A stretch of 64,000 nucleotides of DNA from Gracilibacillus salitolerans (lineage in GTDB: Bacteria > Bacillota > Bacilli > Bacillales > Amphibacillaceae): the NCBI RefSeq assembly GCF_009650095.1, contig NZ_CP045915.1, positions 620,001 to 684,000 of the forward strand, written 5' to 3'. The notes below the pieces were generated by a model. That model saw only the letters and a list, made by a program, of their open reading frames with translations, made no database searches and was not told the DNA's origin. Positions 40,127 to 44,034 of this stretch are shown piece after piece (positions within the stretch are counted from its first letter, which is position 1; the number at the start of each line of letters is the position of its first letter). The position numbers and the translations under genes are program-made.

Positions 40127-40565
40127 GATTCAATTTCGTAAAATGAAAGAATCAGATATAGAAGCGGTCAAAGGGATAGACGAACGCTCCTTTCCGATCC
40201 CATGGCCCGATGACATTTATGAAGAAGAACTAAATAAGAATCAATATGCACAATATTTTGTAGCCACCTTAAATGAAAAAGTGGTAGGCTTTTGTGGTTC
40301 ATGGATGGTGTTAGATGAAGCACAAATAACAAATATTGCAATTGATCCAGCTCATAGAGGAAGGGGATATGGACAAGGATTATTTCAGTACTTAATTAAT
40401 TATGCAGTTGCCCATGGCATTCGCCATTTATCTTTGGAAGTGCGTGTTTCCAATATAACTGCACAAAGAATGTATAAAAAGTTCGGGATGAAGCCAGGTG
40501 GAATCAGAAAAAATTATTACAGCGATAATCAAGAAGATGCTTTAGTATTGTGGGTGAATTTATGA
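40119..40565 (+). CDS. rimI: Ribosomal protein S18-alanine N-acetyltransferase
   Basis: 148-residue GNAT acetyltransferase. The acetyl-CoA loop is [18 protein letters not shown] near residue 77, and [18 protein letters not shown] is the C-terminal GNAT signature. It acetylates the N-terminus of S18 in the known family. It overlaps tsaB at the start by 8 bases and tsaD at the end by 4 bases. Confidence 0.93.
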
Positions 40566-41590
40566 GTGAATATATTTTAGGTATTGAGACGAGTTGTGAC
40601 GAAACAGCTGCAGCAATTATAAAAGATGGTCGAGAAATTGTGTCGAATGTTGTAGCATCTCAAATTGAGAGCCATAAACGTTTTGGTGGAGTGGTTCCAG
40701 AAATAGCGTCTAGGCATCATGTCGAACAGATCACAATCGTGTTAGAAGAAACATTTGCAAAAGCAGGTTTAACCATGAAGGATATCTCTGCTGTTACTGT
40801 AACGGAGGGACCAGGTTTAGTCGGTGCACTATTGGTAGGTGTCAATGCAGCGAAAGGCTTAGCATATGCCCATCAAAAACCATTAGTCGGTGTTCATCAT
40901 ATAGCAGGACACATTTATGCTAACCGGTTGGAAAAGGAATTCGAATTTCCACTATTATCCCTAGTCGTTTCTGGCGGACATACCGAATTGATTTTGATGA
41001 AAGAACATGGTGACTTTGAAATTATTGGGGAAACAAGAGATGATGCTGCTGGTGAAGCGTATGATAAAGTGGCGAGAACATTGGAATTACCTTATCCTGG
41101 TGGTCCCAAAATAGATCAGTTAGCACATAAAGGTGAAACTAATATTGACTTCCCACGTGCATGGTTAGAAGAGAATTCATATGATTTCAGTTTTAGTGGT
41201 TTGAAGTCAGCAGTAATAAATACATTACACAACGCGAAACAAAAAGGTGAAACATTAAAACAAGAAGATGTAGCGGCAAGTTTTCAGGCAAGTGTTGTGG
41301 AAGTGTTAACGGAAAAAACCTTTCATGCTGCAAAACAATATGGTGTCAAACAAGTTGTTGTAGCAGGCGGTGTGGCAGCTAATAAAGGGTTACGAACAGC
41401 TATGCAGGCTAAGTTTCAGCAAGAAGACACAGTCGAATTACAATTTCCCACATTATCACTTTGCACAGATAATGCAGCGATGATTGCAGCAGCAGGATCT
41501 ATTGCTTTCAAGCAAGGTCACCGTGCGCAATGGGATTTAAATGCAAACCCAAGCTTAAGCCTAGAAAGATACGCAAGAAGATCACGCTAG
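40562..41590 (+). CDS. tsaD: tRNA N6-adenosine threonylcarbamoyltransferase TsaD
   Basis: 342-residue catalytic subunit of t6A synthesis. Motifs: [10 protein letters not shown] near residue 6, the metal-binding [10 protein letters not shown] near 111, SGGHTEL and [10 protein letters not shown]. The ATG at 40562 overlaps the rimI stop. It is the last gene of the operon, followed by a terminator and then the DnaA-box region that in B. subtilis also lies between gcp (tsaD) and ydiF. Confidence 0.95.
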
Positions 41591-41616
41591 AACGCTAACA
41601 CGTTCTAGCGTTTTTT
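41587..41616 (+). terminator. Terminator of the thiL-tsaD operon
   Basis: Stem CTAGAACG/CGTTCTAG followed by CGTTTTTTC, overlapping the tsaD stop. Confidence 0.85.
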
Positions 41617-41646
41617 CATGGTCTAGGATATTATAAAATTTGATCC

Positions 41647-42056
41647 TGTGGATAAAGGTGAGCGTGATGAGCCACGTCCAGCTTCAGCGCCCAGAAACTA
41701 GGCGACTTCACGAATCGCCCTACGATAAGTCATCATCGGCTCGCAAGCCTCACCGTGATTCCTTTATCTCAGTAGATTCTGAAGTCGCTACGTTTCTAAT
41801 CGGGCGCTTGCGCTTTTGTTCTTCATGTAATTCCAGAAGGAGCGAAAGTAATCACTAATAATCCATAGTATTTTTTATCCACAATAAAATCTCTCTAAAT
41901 GTGGACTGTTATATAAACCTTATGATATCAAGCTTTAATAATGATGGAAAACTGTGGATAAAATGGTGTGTGATTGTGGATAATGTGGACAAACATCTTA
42001 ATAACTGATTTGCTAGTACTGAATAAGTGGATAAAGGTGTGTATAAATGAGGATAA
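41647..42056. promoter_or_regulatory. DnaA-box cluster between tsaD and ydiF
   Basis: Perfect 9-mers TTATCCACA or complement at 41647-41655, 41875-41883, 41953-41961 and 41975-41983. Boxes with one mismatch are at 41984-41992 (TGTGGACAA), 42026-42034, 42038-42046 (TGTGTATAA) and 42048-42056. Seven lie within 182 bases, six of those in the same orientation. In B. subtilis a DnaA-binding cluster outside oriC lies in the same gcp-ydiF gap. The repeat at 41674-41820 splits the first box from the rest. Confidence 0.85.
41674..41820. repeat. Bacillaceae-type intergenic inverted repeat
   Basis: It begins GTCCAGCTTCAGCGCCC and ends GGGCGCTTGCGCTTTTG, with internal inverted parts GAAACTAGGCGACTTC and GAAGTCGCTACGTTTC. 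The paired ends resemble a repeat common in intergenic regions of Bacillus relatives (recognised from memory). The short ORF over it is not a gene. Confidence 0.7.
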
Positions 42057-42065
42057 GTAAAATAA

Positions 42066-42102
42066 AAAAGGGCATTATGCCTACTGTGCAAAATACCCTT
42101 TA
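42066..42102 (-). terminator. Terminator of ydiF
   Basis: On the minus strand AAAGGGTATT pairs with AATGCCCTTT (one G-T pair), followed by TTTTTT. Confidence 0.75.
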
Positions 42103-42105
42103 TGA

Positions 42106-44034
42106 CTATTCGTGTAAACTTTCCCACTCTTCCATTAATATTTCCATTTGTGCCTTTAAGGAATCGTTTTTATTGGTCAGCTCCAATGCTTTTTCATGAT
42201 CTTGGAAAACATCAGGATCACACAACATTCGATCCATTTCTTCCATTTCTAACTCAAGCTGTTCAATCTCATCTTCAATTTCCTTAATTCGACGCTCTTT
42301 TTTACGCTTTTCTTTTTTTTGCTGCTTTTCTTTTTCATAATTGGATTTTGTGTTATCCGTCGTCTCCTCTACGGTTTTCTTTTCTGCCTTTTTAAGTTCA
42401 GCCAGTTCCCGTTCCTCTTGTTTTTTATCTACATAGTAATCATAATCACCTAAGTAGAGGGTGGTTTTGTCAGACTGCATTTCCAGGACATGTGTGGCTA
42501 ACTTATTAATAAAATAACGGTCGTGAGAGACGAACAAAATTGATCCCGGATAATCGATTAGTGCTGCTTCCAACACTTCTTTACTATCTAAATCCAAATG
42601 GTTGGTCGGCTCATCAAGTAGTAAGAAGTTTGCTTTTTCCATCATTAATTTGGCTAAGGCTAGTCTTGCTTTTTCTCCACCACTTAATGCCGATACGTTA
42701 CGTAACACATCATCTCCGGTGAAAAGGAAGTTACCTAGAATGGTACGAATGTCTTTTTCATTCATACCCGGGTAATCATCCCAAAGTTCATTTAGAACCG
42801 TTTTCTTTGTATTTAATTGTGTTTGCTCCTGATCATAATAGCCAATCTGTACATTCGTTCCAAGTTGAATCTCCCCTGAAGCAGGATCTAACTGTCCGAT
42901 GATCGTCTTTAATAAAGTCGACTTACCGACACCATTCGGTCCGACCAATGCAATACTATCCCCTCGTTCAATATGCAAATTAAGATTAGAAAAAATGAAT
43001 GGGTCTGCCGATTGATAGTGGAATGCCAAGTCGTTAATTTTTAAAACATCATTCCCACTTCTCCGTTCAATGGAAAACGAGAACTTAGCAGAGCTCTCTT
43101 CGCCTGCTGGTCTGTCCATCACTTCCATTTTTTCTAGTTGTTTTCGTCTGCTTTGGGCCCGTTTTGTAGTAGATGCACGTACGATGTTCTTCTGGATGAA
43201 TTCTTCCATCCTTTTAATTTCACTTTGTTGTTTCTCATAAAGCTTGAGATCACGGTCATAATTAGCAGCTTTTTGTTGTAAGTATTTACTATAGTTTCCG
43301 TGATATTTACTAGAGTGATGACGAGAGATTTCATAGACGATATTCACTGTTTTATCTAAGAAATAGCGGTCGTGAGATACGATAACGACAGCACCTTGAT
43401 AACTGTTTAAATATCCTTCCAACCACGTTAACGTCTGTATATCCAAATGGTTGGTTGGTTCATCTAAAATGAGAATGTCTGGTTTTGTTAATAATAGTTT
43501 CCCTAAAGCTAATCTTGTTTTTTGTCCACCACTTAGCGTAGCGATCGAAGTTGTCCACATGCTTTCTGGAAAATCCAGACCATTTAACACGGCTTTAATG
43601 TCTGCTTCATATTGATAACCACCAGCAAGCTTGAAATCTTCCTGTTTTTGGTCATAACTGGCAAGAAGTTGCTCGTAGCGTTCCCTATCTGCAAGTAAGT
43701 CAGGCTCCCCCATTTGCTGTTCCATCCGTCGTAATGCTTTTTCTTCCTTTTGAAAATGTTCAAATATCTTGAGCATCTCATCCCAAATGGTTTCATTGGA
43801 ATCTAAGCCAGAATGTTGAGCAAGATAACCTAAAGAAACCTCTTTCGGTTTATGAATTTCCCCTTCATCATAACCGAGTTGATTGGAAATAATATTTAAA
43901 AGTGTGGATTTACCAGCACCATTACGTCCAACAATAGCGATACGATCGTTCTTTTTTATCTCTAGTTTTATATTAGATAAGATCAGTTCTGCACCGAATC
44001 TTTTGGTTAAATTGTTTACTTGTAAATAAATCAT
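42106..44034 (-). CDS. ydiF: ABC-F family ATPase (YdiF type)
   Basis: 642-residue soluble protein with two ABC domains. Walker A motifs are GRNGAGKS (near 38) and GPNGVGKS (near 357). Signatures are LSGGQKTR and LSGGEKAR, each followed by DEPTNHLD. The interdomain linker with KRAQSRRKQLEKME fits the P-site tRNA-interaction motif of ABC-F factors, which act on the ribosome. The C-terminus is a long charged coiled coil (about 550-640). There are no membrane helices. It is divergent from rex. Confidence 0.9.
   Translation of the reverse strand: MIYLQVNNLTKRFGAELILSNIKLEIKKNDRIAIVGRNGAGKSTLLNIISNQLGYDEGEIHKPKEVSLGYLAQHSGLDSNETIWDEMLKIFEHFQKEEKALRRMEQQMGEPDLLADRERYEQLLASYDQKQEDFKLAGGYQYEADIKAVLNGLDFPESMWTTSIATLSGGQKTRLALGKLLLTKPDILILDEPTNHLDIQTLTWLEGYLNSYQGAVVIVSHDRYFLDKTVNIVYEISRHHSSKYHGNYSKYLQQKAANYDRDLKLYEKQQSEIKRMEEFIQKNIVRASTTKRAQSRRKQLEKMEVMDRPAGEESSAKFSFSIERRSGNDVLKINDLAFHYQSADPFIFSNLNLHIERGDSIALVGPNGVGKSTLLKTIIGQLDPASGEIQLGTNVQIGYYDQEQTQLNTKKTVLNELWDDYPGMNEKDIRTILGNFLFTGDDVLRNVSALSGGEKARLALAKLMMEKANFLLLDEPTNHLDLDSKEVLEAALIDYPGSILFVSHDRYFINKLATHVLEMQSDKTTLYLGDYDYYVDKKQEERELAELKKAEKKTVEETTDNTKSNYEKEKQQKKEKRKKERRIKEIEDEIEQLELEMEEMDRMLCDPDVFQDHEKALELTNKNDSLKAQMEILMEEWESLHE

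Follow-up and report, generated by a model that had tools for sequence, protein, structure and literature searches.

A DnaA-box array of conserved spacing between tsaD and ydiF in Gracilibacillus salitolerans and related bacteria

The gap between the convergent genes tsaD (gcp) and ydiF of Gracilibacillus salitolerans contains an array of DnaA boxes that shows base-exact spacing at most of the loci examined in the order, and a second array is found 3' of a gene for a GNAT acetyltransferase. The gap lies in a window of 64,000 nucleotides (contig NZ_CP045915.1, positions 620,001 to 684,000), the whole stretch of DNA that was analysed. The array is the counterpart of the gcp–ydiF cluster of Bacillus subtilis. 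A first-pass annotation of the window had pointed to a conserved DnaA-box cluster in this gap, a finding that is right and conservative. The gap cluster itself is of a known type, whereas the fixed geometry and the second array are new here as far as they were not found described: a search of the literature by title and abstract opening, thin in its coverage of subscription journals, turned up no conserved spacing at tsaD–ydiF, and an earlier notice is possible. The kept spacing suggests a built protein–DNA structure rather than a simple sponge. It is quite likely that the array is an orthologous stand-alone cis element that binds DnaA soon after replication and restrains re-initiation, its register aiding the assembly of ATP-DnaA.

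The gap is 515 bp long and lies 3' of both genes (Table 1). Its placement is orthologous to that of the convergent gcp(tsaD)–ydiF gap of B. subtilis, as judged from the flanking genes and from the relatives. With dnaA occupying the first base of the genome, the array, at 0.66 of 5.09 Mb, lies outside oriC. The DnaA-box consensus is TTATNCACA, and it is the motif to expect in this host because the host DnaA has an ATPase domain and a C-terminal DNA-binding domain (Bac_DnaA_C). Nine boxes with at most one mismatch are present in the gap, five of them perfect matches to TTATNCACA, as compared with 0.80 and 0.00, respectively, expected from 100 dinucleotide shuffles of the 515-bp gap, none of which reaches nine. 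Thus, TTATNCACA boxes are packed outside oriC beyond chance, as in a Bacillus-type off-origin DnaA-box cluster (DBC). Eight of the 9-mers are those of the first-pass annotation (Table 1), whose tally of four perfect and four single-mismatch boxes holds under strict TTATCCACA and becomes five perfect and three single-mismatch by TTATNCACA; the ninth is a single-mismatch box at 42085(-). As had also been described, seven boxes are gathered in 182 bases (41875–42056), six of the seven on the minus strand, and boxes of the window take the offsets 0, 22, 31, 73, 85 and 95. The pattern TTATCCACA occurs 68 times in the 5.09-Mb genome, four of them within 337 bp at this gap. There is no enrichment of boxes over the whole window (74 versus 85.7 expected) or over the genome (283 TTATNCACA versus 295 for the reversed pattern). 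No Rfam family is found in the gap, the 16 Rfam matches of the window being rRNA and tRNA, and the gap DNA of the window has no match among phage records.

Table 1. Features in and around the tsaD–ydiF gap of the window (positions are those of the window; offsets are counted from the box at 41953)
Feature	Position	Strand	Evidence or remark
tsaD (gcp), upstream neighbour, convergent	40550..41590	+	ORF; TIGR03723 452 bits, cut-off 296
Intrinsic terminator-like hairpin of tsaD, at the tsaD/array boundary	41584..41611	+	11 pairs, then T-run
Copy of dispersed palindromic repeat with leader (MITE-like)	41621..41823	+	43 genome matches, partial ones counted
Outer box TTATCCACA, in the leader of the repeat	41647..41655	-	Perfect match; missing in L011
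Box TTATCCACA, opposite strand, offset -78	41875..41883	+	Opposite-strand peak of relatives at -80 to -77
Box TTATCCACA, offset 0	41953..41961	-	Perfect in 45/64 triple loci
Box TTATCCACA, offset +22	41975..41983	-	Perfect in 44/64 triple loci
Box TTGTCCACA, offset +31, abutting the +22 box	41984..41992	-	Single-mismatch in 41/64 triple loci
Box TTATCCACT, offset +73	42026..42034	-	+73/+74 peak, outside the anchoring boxes
Box TTATACACA, offset +85	42038..42046	-	+85 peak, outside the anchoring boxes
Box TTATCCTCA, offset +95	42048..42056	-	Corresponding site of the sister is no box
ydiF (ABC-F ATPase), downstream neighbour, convergent	42106..44034	-	ORF; NF000355 497 bits, cut-off 380

A mobile-looking repeat had been noted at 41674–41820 and thought to have inserted between the outer box and the main group. 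The repeat is real and somewhat longer than noted: the repeat proper extends over about 41664–41823, with conservation to about 41823, and its leader in the window starts at about 41621. It includes an imperfect palindrome, and its hairpin folding beats 199 of 200 shuffles (z -4.2). The most plausible reading assigns the outer box at 41647 to this leader, and therefore the repeat probably inserted beside the cluster and not into it. In the sister genome G094 (locus L011), the TsaD of which is 91% identical, the gap is 272 bp long and has neither the repeat nor the outer box, whereas the main box group aligns with that of the window, box strength differing at two window boxes (42038 and 42048) and two sister boxes. 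Because both are missing from the sister, the outer box and the repeat probably lie outside the ancestral array, and the outer box, sitting in the repeat leader, was ruled out as an ancestral member of the cluster. A leader like that in the window is present in a minority of repeat copies, and a box with at most one mismatch lies at about the corresponding place in four of 29 other copies examined. Several copies, as judged by eye, are located directly 3' of terminator-like hairpins.

TsaD was found in 198 of 199 genomes of the order, and the 3' side of tsaD was taken from 100 genomes, hand-picked to cover families, which together with the window give 101 loci. A shuffle test was applied to the 75 loci, the window counted, that have a convergent ydiF orthologue at most 1 kb from tsaD. 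A cluster is present in 74 of these 75 gaps, and in each positive gap the count is matched by none of 100 shuffles; the single gap without a cluster is only 32 bp long (L105). In sum, the 75 gaps hold 311 perfect boxes in 28.4 kb versus 3.07 in shuffles; as controls, the mostly coding flank has 39 perfect boxes in 286 kb, and the reversed motif occurs seven times in the gaps. The test omits 26 of the 101 loci (19 with gaps above 1 kb and seven without YdiF in the stretch); in 24 of these, four or more boxes still fall within 400 bp. In a second set of 80 loci of named relatives, found by a B. subtilis TsaD query and overlapping the 101 loci, so that the two sets are not independent, at least four boxes are present in 79 loci and the exact triple described below in 65, with 308 perfect boxes in 29.7 kb versus 19 in 207 kb. 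These shuffle nulls, like the placement nulls below, treat related species as independent.

The spacing of boxes was examined in 97 loci, after L013, L083, L104 and L105, which are without two perfect boxes in the densest stretch, had been dropped. Same-strand distances cluster at 9, 12, 22, 31, 42, 54, 63, 73 and 85 bases with a period of about 10.5–11 bp, and the distance of 9 occurs in 86 of the 97 loci versus 24.5 by random placement. A same-strand triple at 0/+22/+31 is present in 64 of the 97 loci and in 25 of 36 families (0.80 on average and at most 5 in 500 trials of random placement), and a register of five boxes, with a tolerance of 1–2 bases on the outer two, in 29 loci from 15 families. 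When the 64 triple loci are anchored at the triple, further boxes on the same strand appear at +73 (37 loci), +74 (10), +85 (34), -57 to -55 (7, 16 and 8), -13 (12), +43 (11), -9 (10) and +94 (6), and boxes on the opposite strand at -80 to -77 (7, 10, 7 and 6); over the range from -60 to +129, all remaining same-strand offsets are occupied in fewer than six of these loci. The +31 box is off-consensus in 41 of the 64, with TTTTCCACA as its commonest word (25 loci). Forty-four loci chosen by the register align without gaps over 108 columns, with a pairwise identity of 85% in box columns, which is partly by choice, and of 35% in linkers versus 29% from composition. Because the array model (R1) and the alignment (A1) were built from register-chosen loci, model scores and box-column identity are partly circular, and fairer tests are the triple count, the triple-anchored offsets, the class loci chosen by tsaD and the loci chosen by the GNAT gene. 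Shared ancestry alone would hardly keep linker lengths while linker letters turn over. Thirty-three of the 97 loci have no exact triple, including all five of family f44. In this family (L063–L067), boxes are present at tsaD–ydiF in another layout, which makes it a natural variant for the geometry.

The second-best match of the array model in the genome of the window is at 999273–999361 on the minus strand (32.8 bits). It belongs to an array (L115/L364, genome 999273–999447) directly 3' of a GNAT acetyltransferase gene, near a TIGR01777 oxidoreductase gene that we take to be yfhF-like, and this array has eight boxes without an exact triple (L364). In the family of the window, a model match at E ≤0.001 is found in 59 of 60 genomes and at least two matches in 51 of 60, not all of which are the GNAT array; the stretch of 4 kb around 20 further matches has a GNAT and/or yfhF-like gene in 17 cases, tsaD in two and neither in one. 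A set of second loci found by the model gave 12 triples in 24, a figure that is partly circular. Since these first loci came from the register model, the second locus was retested via the GNAT gene, using the best 30 of 50 genomes with a GNAT match (60 in the family). At least four boxes are located within 800 bp 3' of the gene in 21 of the 30 loci, and no cluster in nine; perfect boxes number 88 in 24.0 kb on the 3' side versus two in 44.9 kb 5' of the gene. Each of the 21 clusters has at least three same-strand boxes; the triple is present in nine (0.12 on average and at most 2 in 1000 null trials) and the five-box register in five (null 0). When the tsaD and GNAT arrays of one genome are compared, three genomes share 36, 37 and 39 of 45 box letters and 21, 15 and 18 of 49 linker letters, while a fourth has no triple for such a comparison. 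No GNAT-side site is among the B. subtilis regions in rows 1 to 18 of Table 1 of PMC4447404.

Outside the order, 40 loci from 26 of 35 further families of the class were picked by the position of tsaD regardless of boxes; the families left out are eight together with f81, whose model matches adjoin tsaD. At least four boxes lie within 600 bp of tsaD in 23 of the 40 loci and 17 of the 26 families, and fewer than four in 17 of the 40. Perfect boxes number 77 in 24 kb versus 20 in 104 kb farther on, a control of coding and non-coding DNA together. For nine of the 23 clusters, no ydiF was found in the fetched stretch. The strict 0/22/31 triple was rejected as a class-wide rule, being present in three of the 23 clusters, and spacings of 9, 12, 43 and 54 are still in excess. 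A match of the array model at E ≤0.01 is present in 191 of 200 class genomes (17 belong to the window's own order); these matches are not all at tsaD, and the weaker ones may be any DnaA-box cluster. With 74 of 75 gaps and 79 of 80 loci inside the order and 17 of 26 further families, the earlier view that the cluster at this gap is conserved is borne out by its enrichment in related genera. The exact core pattern also occurs in two uncultured viral contigs (L122:2136-2175 and L123:10805-10844), upstream of a Xer-like recombinase (family-tested in L122, by eye in L123), where it might possibly mark a DnaA-dependent replication region.

Okumura in 2012 reportedly described six clusters outside oriC in B. 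subtilis, and the gcp–ydiF cluster is taken here as one of them. We infer this because the eight tight regions of PMC4447404 include two of oriC; the two reviews cited below leave the six unnamed. The description of gcp–ydiF as a DnaA-box cluster in the first-pass annotation agrees with region 4 of that paper ('downstream of gcp; downstream of ydiF'). This region has 10 sites and is one of the eight tightest DnaA regions of B. subtilis, with an apparent Kd of 0.15 uM for the ATP form and 0.33 uM for the ADP form; at 55 nM, the two forms differ 16-fold (PMC4447404). The likeness of the window array to this cluster consists in the same gap, the same convergent genes and the same box consensus. 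The 0/22/31 layout is seen in most of the close relatives of B. subtilis in the named set, and one such relative, B. spizizenii, used as a stand-in for B. subtilis 168, has boxes at 111, 133, 142 and 185, i.e., 0/22/31/74. The gap in the window differs by the extra box that came with the dispersed repeat; the conserved register and the class-wide spread do not figure in the excerpted accounts of the B. subtilis cluster papers.

Deletion of six clusters outside oriC causes early initiation in B. subtilis, and one cluster put back elsewhere partly reverses it (PMC5295017; PMC13220808). By homology, it is well supported that the window cluster would bind and restrain DnaA. In the earlier statement that such clusters titrate DnaA and restrain initiation, the restraint is upheld by the combined deletion; the word titrate understates what is kept, because distances between boxes are the same to the base in most of the order's loci. 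A purely passive sink, in which the number of boxes titrates DnaA and the spacing is inherited or a by-product, is rather unlikely. This explanation would accord with PMC5295017, where the deletion data are read as sensitivity to free DnaA; the different layouts in family f44 and outside the order also fit it. It is at odds with linkers that are near random in letters and base-exact in length in most loci, and with recurrence of the geometry at a second locus chosen by its gene, the linkers of the two arrays agreeing at only 15, 18 and 21 of 49 letters in the three genomes compared. About 10-fold overproduction of DnaA does not cause over-initiation in B. subtilis (PMC13220808), which speaks against simple titration. 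Points against the main reading of the array as a restraint on initiation are that the effect in B. subtilis is strong only with all six clusters gone and that no clusters with significant initiation-control roles have been identified there, both according to PMC5295017.

At the other extreme, the array might be a nucleoprotein machine of fixed geometry, in which an ATP-DnaA oligomer alters the nucleotide state of DnaA or locks DnaA away, a counterpart of datA/DARS in Bacillus and its relatives with a second copy 3' of the GNAT gene in much of the family; this reading is tentative and somewhat doubtful. At what we take to be the K-12 positions of datA (L361) and of DARS1 and DARS2 (L362 and L363), scans gave no 0/22/31 triple, the datA area having six boxes with at most one mismatch; datA reportedly works via DnaA-ATP hydrolysis with IHF. 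E. coli datA is, like the window array, a non-coding DnaA-box locus outside oriC and restrains initiation (PMC5295017); DARS1 and DARS2, which are also short and located outside oriC with their DnaA boxes, stimulate the regeneration of DnaA-ATP (PMC13220808). B. subtilis is said to be without IHF and datA, and whether it has any regulators that balance DnaA-ATP and DnaA-ADP is still called an open question in the 2026 review (PMC13220808).

At several of the other clusters of B. subtilis, genes are under repression or activation by DnaA (PMC4447404), and a role as transcription regulator of tsaD or ydiF might be supposed for the gap as well. This was judged very unlikely, because promoter signal is wanting (promoter-like matches in the gap are near chance, 4 versus 2.5) and the genes converge on a gap that is 3' of both. 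Between tsaD and the array stands a terminator-like hairpin, and a comparable one is seen by eye in the sister locus L011. Moreover, the array persists when inverted or away from one neighbour gene. It is INDEPENDENCE from its neighbours in L087 and L088 (one genus), where it is inverted with its geometry intact, and in G004, G073 and G038, where it is about 4 kb from tsaD yet beside ydiF, scoring 54.8 bits in G004. In G059, the distance to tsaD is likewise about 4 kb and the closest ydiF match follows after 1.2 kb, and in further class genomes it is beside tsaD without a detected ydiF. In the genomes of the four loci dropped from the spacing test, the model search places an array beside tsaD in G122 and beside ydiF in G004 and G099; the fourth, G053, has a boxless tsaD–ydiF gap reduced to 32 bp, and its array (55.6 bits) is outside this gap, at most 1.3 kb from a GNAT match.

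Tandem DnaA boxes in an AT-rich gap, together with the presence of DnaD and DnaB reported at DnaA-bound regions outside oriC, might indicate a helicase-loading site or a replication origin, either a backup or a former one, a possibility made highly improbable by the poor fit of the genome's own oriC beside dnaA to the array model (at most 18.5 bits versus 55.3 for the tsaD–ydiF array). Judged by their neighbouring genes, three further clusters of this genome correspond to other B. subtilis clusters; they score 27.1 (ywlC, L113), 17.3 (htrC/yyxA side, L114) and 13.9 bits (sda–yqeG, L116), versus the same 55.3. The ywlC cluster (genome 4442302-4442577) looks internally duplicated, four of its boxes recurring after 104 bases. 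L116 (genome 2890392-2890483) is a group of six boxes flanked by yqeG and sda, with Sda confirmed by Pfam, an arrangement shared with B. subtilis. Chance build-up of AT-rich 9-mers, for which only the lack of overall enrichment in window and genome could be adduced, has practically no probability left, being refuted by the shuffle test in each of the 74 positive gaps, by the spacing test and by the loci of the class families.

If the array is a stand-alone cis element rather than a gene-control site, several DnaA molecules would be bound to it soon after the region replicates; DnaA presumably binds there in G. salitolerans as in B. subtilis. On the simplest account, the array, situated 0.66 of 5.09 Mb away from the origin, would double early and restrain re-initiation at oriC together with other clusters, and the tsaD–ydiF locus alone would presumably have some effect on timing. 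The helix-phased, mostly same-strand layout is as would be expected for cooperative head-to-tail assembly of ATP-DnaA: with the register at 0, +22, +31, +73 and +85 phased at about 10.5–11 bp, ATP-DnaA would most likely be arranged head-to-tail on one face of the helix, the strong boxes at 0 and +22 acting as seeds and the abutting, often off-consensus +31 box being filled cooperatively. An ATP-specific DnaA oligomer would in that case be built by the geometry of the array. Dozens of natural variants of one array are at hand, with offsets that are fixed, with phasing and, time and again, with an off-consensus box directly beside a strong one, and the register may serve as a marker for off-origin DnaA loci in unstudied genomes. 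As a base-exact element kept across most families of the order, the array is a candidate regulator of the balance between DnaA-ATP and DnaA-ADP.
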